Assembly: GCF_000233715.2 (NCBI RefSeq)
Contig: NC_021184.1
Location: 62,001-126,000 of the forward strand
Reading direction: 5' to 3'
DNA length: 64,000 nt
DNA from: Desulfoscipio gibsoniae DSM 7213
Lineage (GTDB): Bacteria > Bacillota > Desulfotomaculia > Desulfotomaculales > Desulfallaceae
Shown here: piece after piece, positions 18,640 through 35,442 of the stretch
Layout of the letters: each line of letters starts with the position of its first letter
Position numbering within the stretch: the stretch's first letter is position 1
Position numbers and translations under genes: made by a program
The notes under the pieces: generated by a model
What the model was told of the DNA's origin: nothing
The model's database searches: none
What the model saw: only the letters and a program-made list of their open reading frames with translations

Positions 18640-18915
18640 GATACAGGTCATGATGGAGAGGAGTAAATACGGGAGAACCGCCCAGCGAGTGGGGAAGGTG
18701 TGAGCCCACCGGGGAAACCGTATTGAACATGGCTCCGGAGCTGTCGGCTGAATTTCAGTAGGCCGTACCGGGTTAAGCGCCGTTATCAAGCTTGGGGTAT
18801 CGGGAAACAAGTTCCCCGTACCTTAATGAGGCCTTTTCTGACAAGAGAAGGTAAAATAGGGTGGTAACGCGGGATAACATTTTCGCCCCTGGGTAAACCG
18901 GGGGCGTTATTTATT
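18640..18915 (+). ncRNA. T-box leader, methionine specifier, upstream of metG
   Basis: The leader has the T-box hallmarks. There is a GGAGAGGAGTA K-turn region near 18654, AGCGAGT in the Stem I apical part, and the conserved T-box sequence AGGGTGGTAACGCG at about 18858-18871. The specifier lies in GAACATGGCTCCGGAG, so the codon is ATG (18729-18731), matching methionine and the gene downstream. The terminator is the 9-bp stem CGCCCCTGG/CCGGGGGCG (18885-18907) followed by a T-rich run. Uncharged tRNA-Met would stabilise the antiterminator and allow metG transcription. Confidence 0.9.
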
Positions 18916-18999
18916 TTATGGTAGTATACGAGACGCCATTAAGTAAATAACGGTACATGATTTTAATTGCAAATTATAACAGTGTCAGGAGGAAAAAGT

Positions 19000-24864: not shown

Positions 24865-25651
24865 TTAAGGGTTGCTCTCGATCAAGTCCCACCGGCGTTC
24901 CTGGTGGTAGCCGATATATTCCAGCCCGCCCAGTATACGATTACCGATTTGGCCGTCTTTGGCGTACATAGCGGACAGGCAATCACCGATAATGGTCTCT
25001 GTAATTTTATCGGTATGATGGGAACCCCTCAGGGGTGAACCAAGGTACATGTGGCTTGTCTCAGCGGCCACACCGACGCGCAGGCCGGCCCGGGCGGCTT
25101 TGGCCAGCAGCAGGGGAGGTACGGCAAAATCCGCCGGGTCTGCCAACCGCAGCAGCCTGCGGGAAACGGCATGTGGTCCGTGGGAGGGCGTAGCGGTGCC
25201 GATGATATGGAAAAGATTTAAGTGGCGGTTGAGTTCTTCCCGTACTTTGAGTAAGCGGGCCGCGGGGGGGCGTAATACTGTACTGTGCATAAGTTGGGTA
25301 ACAATTGGTCAAAGCCAGGTCCAGTCCCTGGTTTCGGACAGCCAACACCAACTTGGCTAACAGTTCTTCATTTGCCCCGAACATGTCGCCATCAATAAAT
25401 AATATCCCGTCAGCATCCAGCCGGACAGCTTCCACTGCCCCTACCGCACGGGGAACATCTATACCCAGAGGTTCTGCATACCACAATGGTGCCAGAAGAG
25501 GGCAGTTTATGCTTTCCAAAACGTCCAGTGAATTGTCGGTACAACCATTTAGCACAGGGATAATACATTCCAGTTGGTTAACAGGTAAATTGGCAATTAC
25601 TTTTGCCAGGCTTTTTGCTTCGTTTTTAGCGGGTATTACTGCAATAAACAC
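24865..25651 (-). pseudogene. frameshifted family 2 glycosyltransferase
   Basis: On the minus strand the frame begins at 25651 (GTG behind AAAGGAGGGG) with FIAVIPAKNEAKSL and later FIDGDMFG (the metal-binding DxD region), typical of GT2-type nucleotide-sugar transferases. It breaks near 25264-25270. The conserved C-terminal half, including GTATPSHGPHAVSRR, continues in another frame to 24865. A run of seven G on the plus strand lies exactly at the break; removing one base gives one reading frame of about 261 residues. So this is a recent lesion or a sequencing error. The opposite-strand neighbours are ykuK and yabG. Confidence 0.7.
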
Positions 25652-25737
25652 GGGTAGCCCCTCCTTTTCATGCCGCTAAATATACTGTCCCGGGCGTTTA
25701 CATGGAATTATTCATGTTCATGCACCAATGTTAATTT

Positions 25738-25861: not shown

Positions 25862-26737
25862 TTGGATATAAAAGTTGGTGATGTAGTAGGGCGAAAGTCA
25901 TACGGTATGGATATTTATTTCAAGGTAATTGAAATTGCCGCAGAAGGTGGCGGCAACCAAATGGCTCGCTTAAATGGCCTGGACATGAGGCTTTGTGCCA
26001 ATGCGCCCCTTGCAGATTTGGTAAAAATTGAACCAGGTAAATTGGCGGATTACTGGAGGATGACCATGAGCAAAAACCACGAGGCCATGCGCAGAGTTTT
26101 TACGCGTCGGCAGCAGGATCGTGAAAGGACATTGATGCGTTCGGTGCCTAGCACTAATCCAGGGGAATTGGATAGCTTTGATGTGCCGGGGCGAGTATTG
26201 CACATCGACGGTGATGGTGAGTATCTTGATTTGTGTATGACCACTTACCGGCAATTACAAATTCCAGCTGAAGGTCTTAACATTCCAGAAAACCAGCAGG
26301 CGCAAAAAGTATATGATTTGTTGTCGGAGCACCGGCCTGATTTATTGGTGCTTACCGGACATGATGGATTTACAAAAGGTACTAAGGATTTTTCAAATAT
26401 CAATAATTACTATAACTCCGGCCATTTTGTAGCGGCTGTGCGAGAAGCCCGTCGCTATGAAAAAAGTCGTGATGATTTAGTCATCTTTGCCGGGGCTTGT
26501 CAATCCCATTATGAGTCATTGCTTGAGGCTGGAGCTAATTTTGCCAGTTCTCCCCAACGTGTGTTGATACATGCCTTTGACCCAGTGTTTGTCATAGAAA
26601 AAATTGCTTATACATCCATTTATGATCCCATAAGCTTGCAAGATATCATTGCCGGTACAATTACCGGTTTTGATGGCATTGGGGGCATGGAAACCAGGGG
26701 CAAATATCGTATGGGGGTGCCCCGCTCCCCCTATTAA
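25862..26737 (+). CDS. yabG: sporulation-specific protease YabG
   Basis: This 291-residue cysteine-type protease processes spore coat proteins at coat maturation. The sequence follows YabG closely: VGDVVGRKSYG at the start, HIDGDGEYLDLCM, VLTGHDGFTKG, SGHFVAAVREAR and FAGACQSHYE. The candidate catalytic residues are a histidine and a cysteine of the GHD and AGACQSHYE blocks. TTG 25862 follows GGGG. It is downstream of ksgA as in B. subtilis, though with the ykuK and glycosyltransferase genes inserted between. Confidence 0.92.
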   Translation: MDIKVGDVVGRKSYGMDIYFKVIEIAAEGGGNQMARLNGLDMRLCANAPLADLVKIEPGKLADYWRMTMSKNHEAMRRVFTRRQQDRERTLMRSVPSTNPGELDSFDVPGRVLHIDGDGEYLDLCMTTYRQLQIPAEGLNIPENQQAQKVYDLLSEHRPDLLVLTGHDGFTKGTKDFSNINNYYNSGHFVAAVREARRYEKSRDDLVIFAGACQSHYESLLEAGANFASSPQRVLIHAFDPVFVIEKIAYTSIYDPISLQDIIAGTITGFDGIGGMETRGKYRMGVPRSPY

Positions 26738-26794
26738 TCGGTAACCCTTTTTCACCGGCATGCATAAAATGGCATCAGAAAAGGAGGTGTGGCT

Positions 26795-27796
26795 ATGGAA
26801 AGGCATTATCGCGTCCTTGATAAAGTACAGAGGCGCATTTTAAAAATGCCCAATGTTGTTGGTGTAGGAGTGGGATATAAGCAGGTGGGCCTTACCCAAA
26901 CTAATAAACCGGCGATTATTATTTTTGTGGAAAAAAAAGTACCTGCAGCTAATTTGCAGCGCAGCCAAAAATTACCACCAAAGATAGACGGTTTGGAAAC
27001 CGATGTTATTGAAATCGGCCGGGTGAGGTTATTGGATAGGGTTATGAAAATGCGTCCTGCCCTTCCCGGCAGTAGTGTTGGTCATTATAAAATCAGTGCC
27101 GGTACTTTTGGTGCCGTGGTTAGAGATAAAAATACCGGAGAAAAGTTGATTTTATCTAACAACCATATACTGGCCAACGGGACAAACGGCAGCGATGGCC
27201 GGGCCAGTGTGGGCGATGCTATTTTGCAACCGGGACCCTATGACGGTGGAAAGGCAAGTGACAAAATAGCCGAATTAATTAGGTTTATTCCATTGATTAG
27301 AACTGCCCAGCCCTCCGAATGCCCGGTGGCGGTGGGTGTGGCCGGCATTGGTAACCGGTTTATTAGGCTAATACGTCCGGCATATGAAATGCGCTTTTAT
27401 AAATACAGTCGTTCCACAAATATAGTGGACTGTGCCGTAGCCCGGCCAATAAAAACCGGTTTGATTGGCGAAGAACTGGTAGAGTTGGGCGCGGTGACCG
27501 GGGTGGAGGAAGCCCGGGAAGGAATGTGGGTGCAAAAGAGCGGTCGGACCACAGGGGTTACCTCTGGCTTGGTTACCGCTATGGGAGTGACTTTAAAGGT
27601 GAGCCTTTCTGATGATGAATCAGGCTGGTTCAGTGACCAGGTGGTGGCGGATGTTATGTGTCAACCGGGTGATAGTGGCTCGCTGATCATAGGTAAAGAA
27701 AACAAAGCTGTGGGTCTTTTATTTGCAGGTTCTGATACGCATTGCATCTTTAACCGCATTCAAAATGTACTTAATCTGTTGGAAATAGAATTTTAG
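26795..27796 (+). CDS. trypsin-like serine protease (S1-fold), no signal peptide
   Basis: About 333 residues. SNNHILANG carries the catalytic histidine, VDCAVARP the aspartate and CQPGDSGSLII the serine, in the right order for an S1-type chymotrypsin fold. No signal peptide is visible, so it may act in the cytoplasm or inside the mother cell. ATG 26795 has AAGGAGG (26781-26787) at good spacing; the GTG at 26789 is too close. It follows yabG by 57 bases, which suggests a spore-related role, but this is inference. Confidence 0.75.
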   Translation: MERHYRVLDKVQRRILKMPNVVGVGVGYKQVGLTQTNKPAIIIFVEKKVPAANLQRSQKLPPKIDGLETDVIEIGRVRLLDRVMKMRPALPGSSVGHYKISAGTFGAVVRDKNTGEKLILSNNHILANGTNGSDGRASVGDAILQPGPYDGGKASDKIAELIRFIPLIRTAQPSECPVAVGVAGIGNRFIRLIRPAYEMRFYKYSRSTNIVDCAVARPIKTGLIGEELVELGAVTGVEEAREGMWVQKSGRTTGVTSGLVTAMGVTLKVSLSDDESGWFSDQVVADVMCQPGDSGSLIIGKENKAVGLLFAGSDTHCIFNRIQNVLNLLEIEF

Positions 27797-27844: not shown

Positions 27845-28237
27845 GTGAAAGTTTACCAGACCAGCGATGTAGCCCTCACATTTTTTAATGATATTCCGGC
27901 TATTGGCCCCCGCTTACCCAGCAAGGAAGACGCCCTCAAAGTAGCGGAGAGCTACTTACGGTTAATTGATAAACTAGCCCGGGGGAAAAAAGGTAACCCG
28001 CACTGCAGTATCAGTTTTTTAAAGCAAACGGATGGGCTTTATACGTTAATATTGAGGGGTTCCGGCATGGCTTTGGAGACACTATGCAATTTGGATGAGT
28101 TAATGCTGCAGCGTTTTAAAAAAGGCTTAAAAAACAAACTTTTTATTTTAACCTGCTTCTTTGACGCTCCGGATGGCCAGGTGATGTGCCTGGCCTTGAC
28201 GGAAGGTGTGGGCGCAGTGCTCTATTCACCGGGGTAG
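27845..28237 (+). CDS. hypothetical protein
   Basis: This 130-residue protein has no signal peptide, membrane segment or motif I can name. It has alternating beta-strand and helix-like stretches, such as YTLILRGSGMALETLCNL. The GTG start at 27845 follows a strong GGAGGAGG, so it is probably translated. It lies 48 bases after the protease gene and may be co-transcribed with it. A long palindrome lies just downstream. Confidence 0.55.
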   Translation: MKVYQTSDVALTFFNDIPAIGPRLPSKEDALKVAESYLRLIDKLARGKKGNPHCSISFLKQTDGLYTLILRGSGMALETLCNLDELMLQRFKKGLKNKLFILTCFFDAPDGQVMCLALTEGVGAVLYSPG

Positions 28238-28311: not shown

Positions 28312-28537
28312 ATTAAGTACCATTTAACAGCTATTTTAAGCCAATAAAACCCTCAAACCATAAACTATTAATTTAACCTAATTTATAGGGGATCGCCTTA
28401 ATTTACCCAAATTGCTATGCTTGTCTCATATTGGTATCATTAATGTCAGCCATCCATACATTGGACAGGCACACTTGGAGCAGTTGTGGATGTGCTTTGC
28501 AAAAAAAGGCATAACAGGAAAGGGGAGAGTAAATAAG
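28312..28537 (+). other. gene-free stretch between the palindrome and the CAP-domain gene
   Basis: About 225 bases of AT-rich sequence. The CAP gene frame is open backwards to 28412, but those codons lack an SD. A clear SD (AAAGGGGAG) appears only near 28520. No RNA structure was recognised. Confidence 0.4.
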
Positions 28538-30226
28538 TTGCAAACATGGAACAAATGGCTAGCTATGATTCCCTTGATGGCGGTATTATTGGCGTTTTCA
28601 TTGCTGGCCGGGCCCGTTTGGGCAGCCGACAATCCAGTGGAAAAAGCCGGTAACGACTTAATAGTGACACAAGATTTGCCTAATGGTGAAATGGTGGTCA
28701 CGGATGACCATGCGGTGACAGGGCAAACCGTTAAACAGTCTGCCGGCTTGGGCGATGTCACCCTTAGTATGCCTTTGGTCGTGGGAGGCATCGAAGGGTC
28801 CGAATTATCGGCTGAAGCTAACCAATTGTTTAAGCTGATTAATAATGAGCGGAGCAAAGCCGGCCTGGAACCGCTGGCAGCGGACAATATGCTGACCGTA
28901 CTGGCTCGATTGAAGGCAAAGGATATGGCGGAGAAAAAGTACCTGGGATCCAGCTCCCCCATTTACGGTACAGTTGAAGATATGTTAAACGAGGCCAAGG
29001 TAGAGTACCGGTCGGTTGGTGAAAACCTGGTCCGGGCCACCAGCGCCGAGGCAGCCCATGCCTTATTTATGCGGTACAGTACCTTAAAAAATCGCGTTTT
29101 AAATTCCGACTTTGACCGGATTGGCGTGGCGGTGGTGCCGGCAGGCAGTTACTGCTACGTGGTGGAAATCTTTATTGATGAAGAGGAGCAAATCCAGCAG
29201 AACCCGGATGAAGAAACCAAAACGGGTAACGACGAAGAAGGTAGCGGAGCTGACGAACAAACTGGTGTAAAGCCCGGTCAGGATACTAAACCGGCACCTG
29301 AGCCTGAACCCCAGCCTGTTTCCGGTATGTCGGCTGATGAACAGCAGATGTTCAACCTGGTTAACCAGGAAAGAACCCGGCAAGGCTTAAGCCCGTTGCA
29401 GTTTGATGCCGCACTGCAGCAGCAGGCCCGTTTGAAGGCCGCGGATATGGTGGAAAAAAACTATTTCAGCCATACTTCACCGACCTACGGCTCACCCTTT
29501 GATATGCTGCAGCATGCCGGTATCAAATATACTTACGCCGGTGAGAACCTGGCTATGGCCCCATCGGTGCAGCAGGCTCACAATGGCTTGATGAATTCCA
29601 GCGGCCACCGGGCCAATATATTAAACGCTAATTATGACCGCGTGGGTATTGCTGTGCAAAGTAAGGGCTACCAAAAATATTTTGTACAGATATTCACCGG
29701 GGGACAGCGCAACACCAGCCCGGCTCCAAAGCCTGAACCCGCGCCTGCGCCGCAACCGGAGCCTGCGCCACAGCCTGAGCCCGCTCCCAACCCGGAGCCC
29801 AATCCGGCACCACAGCCCGGTAACGGTTCCGATGTTAATAGTTTGACGTCTGATGAACAGAAAATGTTCCAACTAATTAATCAAGAGAGAGCCAAAAACG
29901 GGACGGCTCCGCTCAAGGTCAATAATGAACTGGTCAAGCTGGCCCGGTTGAAGGCCCAGGATATGATTAACAAAAATTACTTCAGCCATACCTCACCGAC
30001 CTATGGGTCACCCTTTGATATGATGAAGCAGTTCGGCATCCGGTACAGTTACGCCGGTGAAAACCTGGCCGGTGCCCCTACAGTGGCAATGGCCCACGAA
30101 AATCTGATGAATTCCTCGGGGCACAGAAAAAATATCTTAAACACCAATTTCACCGAGGTGGGCATAGGTATTGTAAATGGTGGACCTTACGGCAAAATGT
30201 TCGTGCAAATGTTTATTCAGCCGTGA
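28538..30226 (+). CDS. secreted protein with three CAP (SCP-like) domains
   Basis: About 562 residues. An N-terminal signal peptide with core MIPLMAVLLAFSLLAG and probable cleavage after PVWA is followed by three CAP/SCP domains at about 97-210, 270-388 and 441-562. They are separated by Pro/Glu-rich linkers (PEPAPAPQPEPAPQPEPAP type). Domains 2 and 3 keep the CAP active-site signature FSHTSPTYGSP and NSSGHR. Domain 1 reads LGSSSP and STLKNR in those places and has lost the histidines. TTG 28538 is the start that gives a sensible signal peptide, with the SD AAAGGGGAG upstream. An intrinsic terminator follows. Confidence 0.88.
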   Translation: MQTWNKWLAMIPLMAVLLAFSLLAGPVWAADNPVEKAGNDLIVTQDLPNGEMVVTDDHAVTGQTVKQSAGLGDVTLSMPLVVGGIEGSELSAEANQLFKLINNERSKAGLEPLAADNMLTVLARLKAKDMAEKKYLGSSSPIYGTVEDMLNEAKVEYRSVGENLVRATSAEAAHALFMRYSTLKNRVLNSDFDRIGVAVVPAGSYCYVVEIFIDEEEQIQQNPDEETKTGNDEEGSGADEQTGVKPGQDTKPAPEPEPQPVSGMSADEQQMFNLVNQERTRQGLSPLQFDAALQQQARLKAADMVEKNYFSHTSPTYGSPFDMLQHAGIKYTYAGENLAMAPSVQQAHNGLMNSSGHRANILNANYDRVGIAVQSKGYQKYFVQIFTGGQRNTSPAPKPEPAPAPQPEPAPQPEPAPNPEPNPAPQPGNGSDVNSLTSDEQKMFQLINQERAKNGTAPLKVNNELVKLARLKAQDMINKNYFSHTSPTYGSPFDMMKQFGIRYSYAGENLAGAPTVAMAHENLMNSSGHRKNILNTNFTEVGIGIVNGGPYGKMFVQMFIQP

Positions 30227-30337: not shown

Positions 30338-30425
30338 CTTTTTGCATAGTTTGATAATATTGTCTGCACATTTTAGACAGTCCCTCATATATTATTATAG
30401 AACTCGCATGAAAGGAGGAGATTGT

Positions 30426-31964
30426 ATGGTTGCTGCCCAGACAGCGGTTAAGGAGACTATTACCGTAAGCCAAGTGGTCAGCGAAAATTCCAAGCAAACC
30501 GTGGTGCGCGGGACATTTATGATACCAGACCCCAAACCGGACGTGGATCAGATTATCTCCATTGATAAGACGGCCAGCGTTAAAAAGACCAGACTTTTAC
30601 CTGATAAAGTAGTGGTCGAAGGAACACTTACTTTGCAAATTGTATACGTGGCCTTTGAAAAGGATCAATCTGTACACCATATGCACGCGCAGGTCCCTTT
30701 TACCGCCTACGTTGATTTGCCGGGTGCACTGCCCGACATGGACGTAAGAGTGGATGTCTTTGTTGAAGATGTTAAACTTAATCCCAGCAGCAAGGATGTT
30801 CGGCAGTTTGATGTAATAGCGGTACTGGATGTATCGGCCAAGGTGACCGAAACCCGGGAGGTCGAGGTGCTTACCGAAGTACCGGATAATATGCATGCCA
30901 GCTACGACGTTATTCACATTGATGATGTAGTGGGCCGGGAATCTGCTCAGGTGATTGTCAGTGAAGAGTTTGATGAACCCGACGAAAAACCCGAGCCTAA
31001 AAAGGTGCTGGATGTTGATGCCACTGCTATGGTTACAGATGCTCGCATTGTGGCAGACAAGGTGATCATCGACGGCGAATTAACCTTGCAGATTATGTAC
31101 GTAGGCGCAGTGCCGGAACAGTCCGTGCATAATATGCACAAAACCATCAAGTTTACTGATTTTGTTGAGGTGCCCGGGGCCGACCCGGAAATGGATGTGG
31201 TTGTGGACGCTGTGGTGGAAGATTGTGATGTAGAGATTAAAGGTGACCCATTTTTCAGCGCGAGTTGTGTGATAAGGCTGGATGCCCGGGTTACAGAACC
31301 CAGGGAGGTCCGGGTAGTTACCGAATGCACAGGCAACACAGTGGAAACCGTAGAGCTTAATGTTGAGCATATTATTGGCGAAGATTCTTCGCAGGTGGTG
31401 GTACGGGAAACTTTTGAAACTCCCGATCCTAAACCTTGTCCCGAAAAGGTGCTAAATGTATCCATAGACGAAATTAAAGTAACTGAAAAGAAAATTATTA
31501 AAAATAAGGTAATAACTAAGGGTTATGTAGATGTAAAGATTGTTTACGTCTCCGCCAAGCCCGATCAAGCTGTGCATGCTATGCACCAGCGGCTTAATTT
31601 CCGCACTTTTGTGGAAATTAAAGGTGCTGTCGAAGGTATGGATGTAGTTGTCAAGCCTGTGGTGGAATATATCAATGCCGAGGCGACCATGGGGTGTGAT
31701 GTCAATATTGAGGCGGTTATCAAAGTCAGGGTACGGGTTACCGAAACGATGCGCCGGTCTGTGTGTGCTGATGTTGTGAAAGACGAAGAGTGTCCCGTTG
31801 GTCAGGTAATCGATTACACCATCAAGTCCGGTGATAGGCTTTTCCAGTTGGCCCAGCGCTACAGTACCACCGTGAATAGGATACTGGCTGAAAACCCGGG
31901 GATAAACCCCAATAATTTACAAGTTGGTCAGGTCATTAAAATACCCTGCGGGGCCAAGGGTTAA
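30426..31964 (+). CDS. triple-SPOCS (DUF3794) plus LysM protein
   Basis: The protein has about 512 residues. Three SPOCS repeats of about 130-150 residues each are recognisable by the pattern LQIVYV (or LTLQIMYVG) followed by VHxMH and a Pro/Gly-Asp-Met turn (residues near 5-135, 155-300 and 315-450). A C-terminal LysM reads YTIKSGDRLFQLAQRYST. The domain set resembles the SpoVID/SipL spore morphogenetic family, where LysM binds cortex peptidoglycan and SPOCS bind partners; SipL of C. difficile has this layout. ATG 30426 follows AAAGGAGGAG. It precedes a second SPOCS gene. A spore-envelope role is likely but inferred. Confidence 0.85.
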   Translation: MVAAQTAVKETITVSQVVSENSKQTVVRGTFMIPDPKPDVDQIISIDKTASVKKTRLLPDKVVVEGTLTLQIVYVAFEKDQSVHHMHAQVPFTAYVDLPGALPDMDVRVDVFVEDVKLNPSSKDVRQFDVIAVLDVSAKVTETREVEVLTEVPDNMHASYDVIHIDDVVGRESAQVIVSEEFDEPDEKPEPKKVLDVDATAMVTDARIVADKVIIDGELTLQIMYVGAVPEQSVHNMHKTIKFTDFVEVPGADPEMDVVVDAVVEDCDVEIKGDPFFSASCVIRLDARVTEPREVRVVTECTGNTVETVELNVEHIIGEDSSQVVVRETFETPDPKPCPEKVLNVSIDEIKVTEKKIIKNKVITKGYVDVKIVYVSAKPDQAVHAMHQRLNFRTFVEIKGAVEGMDVVVKPVVEYINAEATMGCDVNIEAVIKVRVRVTETMRRSVCADVVKDEECPVGQVIDYTIKSGDRLFQLAQRYSTTVNRILAENPGINPNNLQVGQVIKIPCGAKG

Positions 31965-31993
31965 TAAAAAAAATTATCGAAGGAGGTTGTGAT

Positions 31994-33112
31994 ATGGCCA
32001 TACAATATTTTTATAGTGAGCCCGATAACGTTTTATGTGTAAAAATAAAAGTTCCGGTGGTTCTGGCGGAAGAAGAAGTGCAGGTGATTGTCGACAACGT
32101 AGCCGCTCTGCCCGAGCTGGCCCAGAAAATTGACCATATTGATGCCCGGCTGCTTGATTTTGAAGCCCGGCCGGTATTCGTTCACGAAAACGGTGATCGG
32201 TGGGTCAGTGTCATTGAAGAAGAGGGCTGGGAGCGCTTTGGCTGGCATTGGGTGAAGCACCGCCAGCCCGTGGTGAAAAAGGTGCTGGTCAGCGGCACAC
32301 TGCACAAGCAAATTTTTTATGTGGATAAAGATGATCACGTCAAGCACGTGGGCGAAGATATTCCTTTTGCCGACGATGTGACCCTGGATGTGCCCCAGCC
32401 CGTGGTGGATGAGGATGATGTATTCGTCCAGCTGCACCATAAAAAAATCGATATGCGCTGGGACTTAAGGCGGGGGTCCCGGCTGCACCAGACCGGGGTG
32501 ATGATTTTCCAGGTTAAAGTGGTTGAGGAAAGACAAATTTTCGTGCAGGTATGCCCGCAGCTGGACCGCAAGTGCGTCCGGGGCGTTAACCTGGTTAAAG
32601 ACGGCAGCTTTGAGGCCTGGGGCACCAATACTGCCCCGGTTTTCTGGGGTGCCAGCAACGTATTGCGCTATAATAATGGTGCTTTAATGGGTAATATCCC
32701 CAATGAGCCGGCTTCACTGTTCCAGACCATTAACCGGCAAGGTGCCAACAACAACAATATTGTACCCACCGGGGAATACCGGCTGTGCTTTGATGCAATG
32801 GAAATTCCCGGTTTCAGAGAGGTTTTAGGGGGGACGGCTTCCTTTAACTTAACGGCGGAACTGCTTTTCTATGATCTTTACGGCAATATGGTTACCGGCG
32901 AAACCAAAACCTGGAATGCCGGAAACATAGCTGATCAATCATTCACTAACTTATGTCTCAACGCCGTTGCTCCTGAGGAGGCCCGGGAAGCGCTGGTAAG
33001 GTTTAGCTTTGAACCGAATTCGCTAAACACCAGTGCCGTGGTAATTGACAATGTCAAACTTGAGTGCATGCGGGTGCAAAACCGTTATTTTGAACAGTTT
33101 TACCAGGGCTAA
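31994..33112 (+). CDS. SPOCS (DUF3794) protein with C-terminal beta-sandwich module
   Basis: This 372-residue protein has one SPOCS domain at about 90-185 (HKQIFYVDKDDHVKHV and the repeat-typical PFADDV). Residues 200-365 look like a beta-sandwich of the carbohydrate-binding or jelly-roll type, beginning NLVKDGSFEAWG. ATG 31994 follows AAGGAGGTTGTG. The gene is 29 bases after the LysM/SPOCS gene and likely co-transcribed. It may link spore proteins to a polysaccharide, but this is inferred. Confidence 0.75.
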   Translation: MAIQYFYSEPDNVLCVKIKVPVVLAEEEVQVIVDNVAALPELAQKIDHIDARLLDFEARPVFVHENGDRWVSVIEEEGWERFGWHWVKHRQPVVKKVLVSGTLHKQIFYVDKDDHVKHVGEDIPFADDVTLDVPQPVVDEDDVFVQLHHKKIDMRWDLRRGSRLHQTGVMIFQVKVVEERQIFVQVCPQLDRKCVRGVNLVKDGSFEAWGTNTAPVFWGASNVLRYNNGALMGNIPNEPASLFQTINRQGANNNNIVPTGEYRLCFDAMEIPGFREVLGGTASFNLTAELLFYDLYGNMVTGETKTWNAGNIADQSFTNLCLNAVAPEEAREALVRFSFEPNSLNTSAVVIDNVKLECMRVQNRYFEQFYQG

Positions 33113-33155
33113 TTATTAATCAACAAGTTTATTAGAAGGCATATAAGCTGCCGAA

Positions 33156-33183
33156 GGGATGGTTTAAGACCATCTCTTTTTTC
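33156..33183 (+). terminator. intrinsic terminator after the SPOCS genes
   Basis: 8-bp stem (GGGATGGT with ACCATCTC, one G-U pair), TTAAG loop and a T-rich run. Confidence 0.75.
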
Positions 33184-33355
33184 TTAATCAGGCGGTTGTA
33201 AAAGCGGGTGCATATTTGTCAGGTAGTATATTGCAACGGCTTTTTACGGTACAGCAGGCCGCTCTACAGGAATTTATTGTTATTAGTTAATTTAACTATT
33301 TTAACTTTCCAGGCATATATTTGTTAAGAGCTTGAAAACGAAGGGGGAAAAATCA

Positions 33356-33652
33356 ATGATGAACAATATGGGTAATTTCATGCCGCTAGTGCAAGAACTG
33401 CAGGAACAATTGAAAAAAATGACGGTTAAAGTAAGCGCCGGTGAAGGAGCGGTGCAGATAGTGATGAATGGCAACCAGGAGGTGGTGCAGCTGCACTTTA
33501 AGCCTGAATCGGTTCAGGACCCGGCCCGGTTGGCCCAGTTGACCACCGAAGCTTTTAATGAGGGTATGCGGGAATCCAAAAAAATGGTGCGCGAGCAATT
33601 ATCCAAATTAACGGGCGGCCTGGCCATCCCTACTGTGCCGGGTTTGATTTGA
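33356..33652 (+). CDS. YbaB/EbfC-family protein, paralogue away from the usual recR locus
   Basis: This 98-residue protein has the YbaB pattern: QELQEQLKKMTVKVSAGEGAVQIVMNGNQEV, then a helix with ARLAQLTTEAFNEG. YbaB proteins bind DNA as dimers. The usual ybaB lies beside dnaX and recR, and this copy is elsewhere; it is followed by small unknown genes and ends in a hydrophobic tail GLAIPTVPGLI. Double ATG at 33356/33359 behind AAGGGGG. Confidence 0.75.
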   Translation: MMNNMGNFMPLVQELQEQLKKMTVKVSAGEGAVQIVMNGNQEVVQLHFKPESVQDPARLAQLTTEAFNEGMRESKKMVREQLSKLTGGLAIPTVPGLI

Positions 33653-33670
33653 TAGAGGTGGTATCATATC

Positions 33671-33931
33671 ATGCCCGGTGCTGATTTGGAAAAAAGAATG
33701 GCTGAATTGTTGGAAATAAAGGGTAAGCACAATCTTGATAATGATCAATTTTTATTGTTCATGGGCCTCACCAATCTAATGGGTATTATTAATTTGCTTG
33801 AGGTGCGGGTCACCGGTGGTGCAAAGGGGAACGGCGCCCGCCGGTCTCCGTCGCCTCAGGAAATGGTGCCTTTTTTGGGTATGTTTGGCGGTCCCAAGGT
33901 CAGAGGGCAAGCTGATGGTGTAGCCAAATAA
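33671..33931 (+). CDS. small hypothetical protein, family with 34551 gene
   Basis: 86 residues. Residues 4-47 (LEKRMAELLEIKGKHNLDND then LLFMGLTNLMGIINLLEVR) align with the first half of the 200-residue protein encoded at 34551 (KIEEILAKILDYQSKHKVDD, LLNLMGMVNVLNRRE). The tail is Gly/Pro-rich with MVPFLGMFGGPK. It is 18 bases after the YbaB-like gene. Function unknown. Confidence 0.6.
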   Translation: MPGADLEKRMAELLEIKGKHNLDNDQFLLFMGLTNLMGIINLLEVRVTGGAKGNGARRSPSPQEMVPFLGMFGGPKVRGQADGVAK

Positions 33932-33956
33932 AAAAGGGCTGCCGGTAGGCCGCCCT
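33930..33956 (-). terminator. minus-strand terminator at the convergent junction
   Basis: AAGGGC.GCC/GGC.GCCCTT stem with a GGTA loop; read on the minus strand it ends in a T-run (plus-strand A6 at 33930). It fits the end of the minus-strand gene at 33978. Confidence 0.65.
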
Positions 33957-33977
33957 TGGTCAGCTTGTCGTTAAAAG

Positions 33978-34436
33978 CTATTGTTTGTTTGTGGTTGATA
34001 TTTCGGCAGGCAGCACTGCCGGGGTAGGTTCTATTACTGTTGTAGTGGTTATATCACTGTTGTACGATGGTGGTGTGTCATGGGTATCCAGTGAAATTGA
34101 TGACTCATTGGGTTGATCCAGTGCGGGTTTTGAATCAGGCTCCTTATCGTTTGGGAAATGGGGCTGATCCACCAGCGGCAGATCATCCGCCGGTGAATGA
34201 TTATTAAACTCGGCCCCGGGTTGTTCCCGGGGTGTATTATTGCCAGGGGACACTGTTAATTGATAAACGGCATTGTGCAGTGCATTTATACCCCTTTGCA
34301 TTTCTTGAACGGTGTTTTGGGTACCATCAATCATTTCAATTAACCGGCGTAACCATGGCTCCAGGTTTTGCCCCCCCAAGGCCAAAACAATGAATAAGGG
34401 AATCATTTCCCAAGGGTTTAAATTTGAGCGGGTCAA
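33978..34436 (-). CDS. hypothetical protein with hydrophobic N-terminus and Pro/Thr-rich tail
   Basis: This 152-residue protein on the minus strand starts with NLNPWEMIPLFIVLALGGQN, followed by a helical LRRLIEMIDGTQNTVQEM region and a long disordered tail rich in Pro, Thr, Asp and Asn. The start is TTG behind AAAGGAGAA. The hydrophobic segment and the cluster context suggest a membrane-associated partner of the neighbouring small proteins. The family is not recognised. Confidence 0.55.
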   Translation of the reverse strand: MTRSNLNPWEMIPLFIVLALGGQNLEPWLRRLIEMIDGTQNTVQEMQRGINALHNAVYQLTVSPGNNTPREQPGAEFNNHSPADDLPLVDQPHFPNDKEPDSKPALDQPNESSISLDTHDTPPSYNSDITTTTVIEPTPAVLPAEISTTNKQ

Positions 34437-34550
34437 AGAAATTCTCCTTTCGTTTAATATTTTATAGTTAGACTATGAAATAGACTATGCAAATGTTCGG
34501 TAAAGACGTTGCTTTATGGTAATTTAAAGCAGTAAGAGGGGTGTTGGAAA

Positions 34551-35153
34551 GTGGATGAAAACCATAAAATTGAGGAGATTTTGGCAAAAATATTGGATTA
34601 TCAGTCAAAGCACAAAGTAGATGATGATAGTATTTTAATAATGCTCAGTTTGCTTAACCTGATGGGCATGGTTAATGTTTTAAACCGCCGGGAGGAAAGC
34701 TGCGCCGCACCTACCGGGACAGGTACCGGTCTTGGAAATATAGAAGCGTTACTGGGACCGCTTATGGCTTTGATGGCTTCCGGTATGGGTAAGGGCGGGA
34801 GCGGCAGTGGGCAGGGATCCTTTAACCCGGCGGCATTACTGAGCCTGTTGAGTGGCGGCCTGGGAGGCGGCCAAAGCAAGGGGGCTGCACCTGACCTTTC
34901 CGCGCTATTTGGCCTCCTGGGCCCCTTACTGGGCATGGGGGCCGGCCAGCCGTCCGGTTCATCACCTGACCAGGTGAAGGGCGCTGGAAATGGATCTACT
35001 AAGTCGCAGCCCGTGCAGCGGGAGATAAATCTGGATGAAAAATATAAAACCCCCACCACTGGCGCGGCCAGCGCCGGGATTGATGCCGCGGGGGAAAAAA
35101 AGGAACGGCCACCCAAGCCCGGTGAAGTATTGAAATGGAAATTTGGGACATGA
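34551..35153 (+). CDS. Gly/Leu-rich protein, longer relative of the 33671 gene
   Basis: About 200 residues from GTG 34551. The N-terminal 50 residues match the 33671 protein. Then come two Gly/Leu/Met-rich hydrophobic stretches (NIEALLGPLMALMASGMGKG, LLSLLSGGLGGG, LLGPLLGMGAGQ) and a charged C-terminal tail. No enzymatic motif is visible. It resembles a surface- or coat-type low-complexity protein, but this is speculative. The open frame opposite is a shadow. Confidence 0.55.
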   Translation: MDENHKIEEILAKILDYQSKHKVDDDSILIMLSLLNLMGMVNVLNRREESCAAPTGTGTGLGNIEALLGPLMALMASGMGKGGSGSGQGSFNPAALLSLLSGGLGGGQSKGAAPDLSALFGLLGPLLGMGAGQPSGSSPDQVKGAGNGSTKSQPVQREINLDEKYKTPTTGAASAGIDAAGEKKERPPKPGEVLKWKFGT

Positions 35154-35183
35154 TAGACATAAAGGATAACCGGGGGTGATTGT

Positions 35184-35417
35184 TTGGGCGATAACGACAG
35201 AACTGTCCGAGAAACGGTTTGGGTGGGTGGATTGCACGACGCGGATGGCGGTCGAGAAATTGAACATAATTTAATCCAGGTGGACGGGGTGGAGCATGTA
35301 CAAGTTGAATTAAATGAAGGCGCGGTGACCGTTGATTACGACCCGGCGGTTATAAGTGGTGAATACTTGCGCCGGACCCTGAATTCCCTGGGCTATTCGC
35401 CATATGTACGCTATTAA
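35184..35417 (+). CDS. HMA-like small protein lacking the metal-binding CxxC
   Basis: 77 residues. The pattern (WVGGLHDADGGREIEHNLIQ, GVEHVQVELNEGAVTVDYDP, LRRTLNSLGYSP) is that of the ferredoxin-like heavy-metal-associated fold. The loop that normally holds GMTCxxC is GLHDADGGR, so the cysteines are absent and copper binding by that site is unlikely. TTG 35184 follows GGGGGTGAT. It ends just at an intrinsic terminator. Confidence 0.65.
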   Translation: MGDNDRTVRETVWVGGLHDADGGREIEHNLIQVDGVEHVQVELNEGAVTVDYDPAVISGEYLRRTLNSLGYSPYVRY

Positions 35418-35442
35418 GCGGGCTTTACGGGGCCCGCTTTTT
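35416..35442 (+). terminator. intrinsic terminator after the HMA-like gene
   Basis: AGCGGGC/GCCCGCT 7-bp stem and a T tract. Confidence 0.85.

Follow-up and report, generated by a model that had tools for sequence, protein, structure and literature searches.

The assembly of the bacterial spore coat is known mainly from Bacillus subtilis and Clostridioides difficile. In C. difficile, SipL (CD3567) carries three DUF3794/SPOCS domains followed by a C-terminal LysM domain, and its gene sits downstream of yabG and veg, as described in passages of two reports (PMC6436350, PMC10681294); yabG itself is placed, in a further passage, under mother-cell regulators, sigma-E among them. Moorella is stated in part of another report to be without SipL (PMC8745062). 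Desulfoscipio gibsoniae, under the name Desulfotomaculum gibsoniae strain Groll, is a spore-former whose spores are spherical and central according to a passage of its description (PMC4148979). The locus considered here lies at positions 30426-35417 of a window of 64,000 nucleotides of D. gibsoniae DSM 7213, the window being the whole stretch analysed (bases 62001-126000 of NC_021184.1, the single contig of 4,855,529 bp that makes up this genome). It contains sipL, a gene for a second SPOCS protein with a carbohydrate-binding module (CBM)-like half, and a module of small proteins from three families: a YbaB paralogue, glycine/leucine-rich (Gly/Leu) proteins and a small hydrophobic-helix protein. 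We hold it about 60% probable, judging from sequence, that sipL and the SPOCS-CBM gene here stand beside a three-family module which is expressed late in the mother cell under sigma-K and helps to build the spore envelope.

The 30426 protein (30426..31964, plus strand, 512 amino acids) matches PF12673 in three stretches (210.2 bits) and carries a C-terminal LysM domain (PF01476, residues 500-543 by the numbering of the 548-residue open reading frame, ORF). Because three SPOCS domains and LysM are arranged as in C. difficile and yabG lies nearby, the protein was filed as SipL and, on this architecture, is SipL. The first-pass annotation had recognized the triple-SPOCS/LysM organization correctly, but its placing of the protein in an unfamiliar system gives way to this known identity. 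It is the sole triple-SPOCS protein of the genome (search at E 0.001), which holds five SPOCS domains, three in SipL, one in the product of the next gene and one in a paralogue at C1:4158218. The gene is found, as in C. difficile, near yabG (25862..26737, plus strand; PF05582, 402.6 bits), the sporulation protease gene located ~3.7 kb upstream. In contrast to the C. difficile locus, three genes lie between yabG and sipL, and the SPOCS-CBM gene and the small-protein module follow. SpoIVA, to which SipL would bind through its LysM domain, is encoded in the genome. SipL domains were detected in 56 of 60 relatives from the same order and SpoIVA in 59 of 60.

The seven ORFs listed in the first-pass annotation are all present and are real genes, with the features ascribed to them. 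Their treatment as one 5-kb unit was not upheld, since gaps, strands and terminator-like hairpins divide them into four predicted transcription units. The first (30426-33112) would comprise sipL and the SPOCS-CBM gene (31994..33112, plus strand), and is followed by a terminator-like hairpin at 33153..33179 (plus strand). The second (33356-33931) would join the YbaB/EbfC paralogue (33356..33652, plus strand, 98 amino acids) to Gly/Leu protein A (33671..33931, plus strand, 86 amino acids; profile GLN2, E 1.6e-17), which has a helical-hairpin N-terminus and a short tail. The third, on the minus strand (34436-33978), appears to consist of the helix gene alone; its product of 152 amino acids, a member of the family MIN, has by eye a hydrophobic N-terminus, a coil and a low-complexity tail. 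The fourth (34551-35417) would contain Gly/Leu protein B (34551..35153, plus strand, 200 amino acids; a hairpin at residues 3-50, then Leu/Gly repeats and a VLKWKFG motif at the C-terminus) and an HMA-fold protein devoid of the CxxC metal site (35184..35417, plus strand, 77 amino acids; PF00403, 36.4 bits, zero cysteine), with a terminator-like hairpin at 35416..35439 (plus strand). The N-terminal domain common to Gly/Leu A and B is recovered at E 2.1e-5 when the whole of B is used as the query.

Conservation among spore-formers, which had been proposed as a check on the cluster, was observed: the gene set is kept across the order beyond chance. Among the 60 relatives, 56 loci were mapped, one per genome (genomes G014, G030, G031 and G041 were left out); they had been picked by a match to SipL, SPOCS-CBM or Gly/Leu, and some run off contig ends, so that the following frequencies are biased. 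SipL occurs at 54 of the 56 loci, SPOCS-CBM at 39, the YbaB paralogue at 41, a Gly/Leu gene at 49 and at least two Gly/Leu genes at 33, the minus-strand family at 32 and the HMA-like gene at 28; at 11 loci all six families stand together, with Gly/Leu represented by two genes. Pairing is strictest between YbaB and Gly/Leu, which adjoin each other at all 41 loci holding such a YbaB gene, with a gap of 5-40 bp in 40 of 43 cases (18 bp in the window). YbaB comes first in most maps, Gly/Leu in two families (f3, f12). In a SipL scan of named genomes (79 loci kept of 151 confirmed matches), the arrangement was seen in Sporotomaculum, Desulfofundulus, Desulfotruncus, Desulfovirgula, Desulfocucumis, Pelotomaculum and Desulforamulus, sometimes without single genes, and the most similar named loci include those of Desulfoscipio geothermicus metagenome-assembled genomes and Sporotomaculum syntrophicum. 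In the same scan, neither a Gly/Leu nor a YbaB gene was found beside sipL at the distant loci L161-L189 except L170. Two further observations concern sipL itself. A protein with three CAP (SCP-like) domains (Pfam) is encoded directly 5′ of it, at 28412-30226, and CAP genes occur at 39 of the 56 order loci and, in several distant genomes, close to sipL. In one family, four genomes (L098-L101) possess two tandem SipL-like genes at a locus without Gly/Leu, YbaB and helix genes.

The module is found well beyond the order. A Gly/Leu profile built from the order matched in 30 of 299 genomes of the phylum and, once enlarged with those matches, in 62; 53 of the latter lie outside the order, and all 53 loci were inspected. 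A YbaB gene occurs within 3 kb of the Gly/Leu gene at 32 of them, on the same strand in 32 of 32 and within 100 bp in 25, a count that does not depend on how the loci had been found; the accompanying binomial test assumes two copies per 2.4-Mb genome and independent genomes and is a rough guide. At 50 of the 53, either a YbaB or a helix gene is near. The position of the module varies: in 8 of 53 cases sipL is no more than 3 kb away, and in other cases the module stands beside sleB-ypeB or elsewhere; six YpeB and five Hydrolase_2 proteins from sleB-ypeB loci were tested, and Pfam confirmed all of them. At least two ybaB copies are present in 43 of the 62 Gly/Leu-positive genomes versus 14 of the 237 others (Fisher p 6e-25, kinship ignored), and SpoIVA in 59 of 62 versus 191 of 237 (p 0.004, kinship likewise ignored), the three positive genomes without SpoIVA being 72, 75 and 61% complete. 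When 20 of the 29 distant genomes (L161-L189) were searched, three gave a Gly/Leu match, one having coordinates identical to those in genome G328. In a Thermosediminibacterales metagenome-assembled genome, helix genes, YbaB and Gly/Leu stand in a row, and in Natroniella the Gly/Leu gene is divergent from a small ORF which by eye encodes a hydrophobic helix and which matches none of the profiles.

Promoter signals were analysed as well. Consensus patterns of sporulation sigma factors were matched to the 110 bases 5′ of each gene and compared with Markov-resampled controls; for sigma-K the pattern was AC - 15-17 nt - CATANNNTA, and a site was counted at 9 or 10 of 10 positions. Order groups contain one gene per genus (except for unlabelled ORFs) and phylum groups one per genome, relatedness inflating the p-values of the latter; helix genes of the phylum were represented by ORFs of at least 60 amino acids, one per locus (n=36). 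The patterns are supported by sleB of the same loci, where sigma-G sites precede 20 of 24 genes (4% expected) and sigma-K sites 1 of 24. Sigma-K-like sites were found before 24 of the 36 helix genes (3% in controls) and, in the order, before 11 of 21 genes of the minus-strand family, 11 of 20 yabG (by genus) and 15 of 32 sipL genes (controls 3-8%); sipL also has sigma-E-like sites (19 of 32). In the window, both sipL and the minus-strand gene are preceded by sites fitting at 10 of 10 positions: CACA - 15 nt - CATATATTA at 30367..30394 (plus strand), 31 nt 5′ of the ATG, and AACA - 16 nt - CATAGTCTA at 34469..34497 (minus strand), 32 nt 5′ of the start codon. The site of yabG fits at 9 of 10. 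No sigma-K sites precede the ispE, ksgA, RNaseH-like, EamA, GntR and SPOCS-CBM genes. The picture is blurred by sigma-K excesses before unlabelled ORFs (7/80 vs 3%), the gene at 27845 (5/24 vs 3%), the Zip gene (4/19 vs 5%) and YkuD (4/22 vs 7%), and by a sigma-G excess before sipL of the phylum (2/8 vs 3%). A cruder promoter analysis agreed in broad terms, the sigma-K signal of the order's YbaB and Gly/Leu genes being somewhat stronger in it. As an observation apart, Gly/Leu and helix genes stand beside sleB-ypeB at L213, L218, L234, L238, L240, L257 and other loci, with sigma-K-like sites before the helix genes and sigma-G-like sites before sleB; there, to judge from these sites, genes for two compartments apparently lie side by side.

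Sigma-K-like promoters point to late mother-cell expression, which would place the products outside the forespore and thereby argues for a role in the envelope; a coat, crust or outer-membrane role of the module appears most likely. The coat or spore-surface function put forward in the first-pass annotation is thus the best reading insofar as sipL and the helix-gene promoters fit sigma-K, location and function being deduced. We infer a mechanism from the style of the sequences and the pairing of the genes. SipL would act as it does in C. difficile and nucleate the coat by way of SpoIVA, and the SPOCS-CBM protein would join the SipL layer and present or bind a glycan. The hydrophobic-helix protein may reside at the outer forespore membrane. 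The Gly/Leu protein would self-assemble by means of its hydrophobic hairpin and Leu/Gly repeats to yield an insoluble envelope layer. The dimeric YbaB-fold protein, which probably shares its message with Gly/Leu, would act as a partner or assembly chaperone of the Gly/Leu protein rather than as a packer of the chromosome.

Several findings weigh against a sigma-K-driven envelope module. Sigma-K-like sites are weakly enriched before YbaB genes of the phylum (7/35, 2% expected) and not significantly in the order (2/25), where a weak sigma-E excess was seen instead (10/25 vs 20%). Gly/Leu genes give no clear sigma-K signal (2/24 in the order, 2/53 in the phylum, 0/20 behind YbaB); few sites would be expected on the assumption that they are transcribed from an upstream promoter. 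In the window, the sigma-K fits are 8/10 for YbaB (at 33 nt) and 8/10 for Gly/Leu B (at 86 nt), in groups whose signals are weak or not significant. Because their own promoter signal is weak, the mother-cell reading of YbaB and Gly/Leu leans on coupling to the helix gene, and the count for that coupling outside the order (a helix gene within 3 kb of Gly/Leu at 37 of 53 loci) is partly circular, the helix profile having been seeded from neighbours of Gly/Leu genes. The HMA-like gene has no sigma-K signal and a small sigma-G excess (3/16 vs 3%). Furthermore, 191 of 250 SpoIVA-positive genomes of the phylum gave no Gly/Leu match and 7 of the 56 order loci have no Gly/Leu gene, so that the module is not a general requirement of sporulation. 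YbaB is missing beside some Gly/Leu genes (among them L074, L076 and L079, as well as L234, L238 and L240 at sleB-ypeB); a fixed three-protein machine is therefore not supported, and Gly/Leu looks like the core and YbaB like an aid.

The rival account that survives best, itself unlikely, holds that the YbaB paralogue binds DNA and regulates late genes of the mother cell, much as GerE does in B. subtilis, its operon also encoding the Gly/Leu and helix proteins as coat proteins with no relation to it. YbaB family members are DNA-binding nucleoid proteins, and the paralogue exceeds the cut-offs of both PF02575 (76.9 vs 25.5 bits) and TIGR00103 (53.7 vs 49.45 bits), matching the YbaB profile together with the solved relatives 1ybx, 1j8b and 1pug; the sigma-K-like promoters of the neighbouring helix genes also suit a late mother-cell context. 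However, the tight and repeated pairing of YbaB with Gly/Leu at different loci suggests a direct partner, and the module paralogues lie on longer branches than the main copies, taken as the 30 best profile matches plus the window genome's own and chosen by match, not by a dnaX-recR neighbourhood. The first-pass annotation had noted that the paralogue lies away from recR; a single further YbaB match exists in the genome, at C1:53494, ~42 kb upstream. In a tree of 104 columns with long branches, 47 module copies of the order fall on one side of a branch (SH-like approximate likelihood ratio test, SH-aLRT, 95), 7 module copies of the phylum fall beside main copies in a quick tree, and the approximately unbiased (AU) test does not reject the main copies as one group (p 0.745). 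On so few columns and such long branches, the module copies may have arisen once or more than once. Compared with YbaB/EbfC nucleoid-associated proteins, then, the module copy belongs to the same fold family and is a second, diverged copy paired with a Gly/Leu gene among sporulation-linked neighbours; as a member of this family it may bind DNA as a dimer.

A decidedly less probable alternative places the module in the forespore, where YbaB would pack the spore chromosome and the helix protein would tie it to the inner membrane. This is in keeping with a nucleoid protein family, with the closeness, in many genomes, of Gly/Leu and helix genes to sleB-ypeB, a classical forespore pair, and with the sigma-G excess of the HMA-like gene. 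In contrast to sleB at the same loci, no sigma-G excess was seen before helix (0/36), YbaB (2/35) or Gly/Leu genes (2/53), and a forespore nucleoid role was set aside because this signal is missing; late mother-cell expression, if correct, makes such a role for the module YbaB unlikely in itself. Least probable of all is an ordinary sipL neighbourhood in which the small genes, housekeeping genes or chance neighbours without connection, have stayed together because rearrangement is slow. The ksgA-ispE block, largely syntenic in the order and including genes of no obvious spore role, might suggest this; against it, YbaB, Gly/Leu and helix genes are found together again beyond the order where sipL is absent from the locus, and sigma-K-like promoters precede the helix gene.

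At this locus, SipL and its surroundings are already known, and the YbaB, Gly/Leu and helix module is apparently undescribed. The undescribed group that the first-pass annotation had suspected is retained as this core, which is separable from the other genes and also occurs at loci without sipL. On present gene content, the module is not essential for sporulation in general. At somewhat less than even odds, we further propose that a YbaB-fold protein has been recruited from the nucleoid to a sigma-K-linked module and, together with a self-assembling Gly/Leu hairpin protein and a small helix protein anchored in the membrane, builds a distinct, undescribed envelope layer or scaffold that is widespread in anaerobic spore-formers. 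Such a module would add to the known components of spore envelopes among sulfate reducers, syntrophs and other anaerobes that form spores. Its interest lies in two families that escaped the Pfam and NCBIfam models and in the presence of a nucleoid-protein fold in a sporulation context. No account of a spore YbaB was found in the literature covered, a description under other names or elsewhere being possible; papers containing both YbaB and spore mention YbaB at most twice and, judged by their titles, treat other subjects.

The Gly/Leu proteins share a conserved part of ~44 residues with two predicted helices, the second very hydrophobic. Structure prediction of the small proteins, likewise proposed earlier, was carried out for Gly/Leu B (model mce0309ee0243), with helices at 3-21 and 25-50 and confidence limited to this N-terminal hairpin; the remainder of the family, rich in Leu/Gly/Asn-Pro repeats, is predicted with low confidence. 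Gly/Leu B has a match in 51 of 60 order relatives (E 0.1). Among the 49 long members from the order, 44 have a W motif close to the C-terminus, and the VLKWKFG of Gly/Leu B reads KWDxRLG in several relatives. No recurrent Pfam match was obtained among 50 members (eight families, one member each, best E 1.2e-4), no relative of the hairpin among solved structures (best E 0.66), and for 10 further Gly/Leu and helix proteins scattered weak Pfam matches to unrelated families and none in NCBIfam at E 0.1. The window helix protein has no Pfam match at E 1 and no NCBIfam match at E 0.1; its motif NPFTLFLILILLIL is present in several relatives. Helix proteins of the phylum feature an amphipathic stretch resembling LKPFLGPKGQ, the hydrophobic motif NPFTLFLILILLIL, or both. 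Sequence matches unite this phylum family with the minus-strand family represented in the window: 14 ORFs of order loci match the phylum profile and several share the hydrophobic motif, the window protein itself missing the profile and joining solely through the order family. In general style, the module proteins may be likened to YqfQ and other glycine-rich spore proteins of Bacillus, for their short Leu/Gly repeats, and to the tiny hydrophobic sporulation proteins of the YjcZ type, for their small hydrophobic helix. The HMA-like protein scores above the Pfam HMA cut-off and below those for CopZ. A metal-chaperone function was rejected, CxxC being absent from 29 of 29 members, each of which has at most one cysteine. 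In seven genomes of two families (L086, L088, L090, L093, L094, L103, L106), the interval from the YbaB paralogue to the HMA-like gene contains two extra genes, for a subtilisin-like protease (~365 amino acids, by eye) and a coil protein of 180-200 amino acids.

The SPOCS-CBM protein (372 amino acids) reaches 22.3 bits against PF12673, below the cut-off of 23.6. Its AlphaFold model (predicted local distance difference test, pLDDT, 84.3; predicted template modelling score, pTM, 0.50) has an SPOCS-like all-beta N-terminal half (~15-185) followed by the beta-sandwich that had been anticipated (~195-360). The latter aligns with the CBM16 module 2zey_B (VIA Z 15.7, root-mean-square deviation 2.5 over 132 residues), with other CBMs, phage tail spikes, F-box lectin domains and insecticidal-protein domains scoring close; since so many sandwich domains score nearly as high, only the general fold is claimed, which in the model is that of a CBM16/CBM4-like sandwich. 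Matches were found in 42 of 60 order relatives (E 0.001), some to the CBM half alone. Residues 19-133 show weak similarity (E 2.4e-5) to CsxC of Clostridium sporogenes, which is located in the exosporium and has 14 cysteines in 273 amino acids according to a passage of PMC4942563, whereas the SPOCS-CBM protein has 6 in 372 and a CBM-like domain; assignment as CsxC (NF045794) was rejected on score (24.5 bits vs a cut-off of 135). A paralogue at L295:7943-9202 (C1:4157942) is 73% identical over 342 residues and has, by eye, a Pro-rich insert in its C-terminal half. The protein at L295:10809-11894 combines a LysM-like N-terminal stretch (by eye) with a C-terminal domain resembling the CBM half, and partial matches of this kind occur in many relatives.

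Further upstream in the window, yabG adjoins a gene for an NAL1-like protease (26789..27796, plus strand; PF25608). Sigma-K-like sites precede this gene in 14 of 31 genera (controls 3-8%), and at 23 of the 53 phylum loci no more than 3 kb separate it from the Gly/Leu gene; its product is possibly a second processing protease of the spore envelope. An ORF at 25305-25679 is probably a non-coding shadow; it matches no family, and several relatives have a minus-strand ORF of ~260 amino acids there. An ordinary T-box leader (RF00230, 103.9 bits) is located at 18641-18893, upstream of a 529-residue ORF that starts at 18967.

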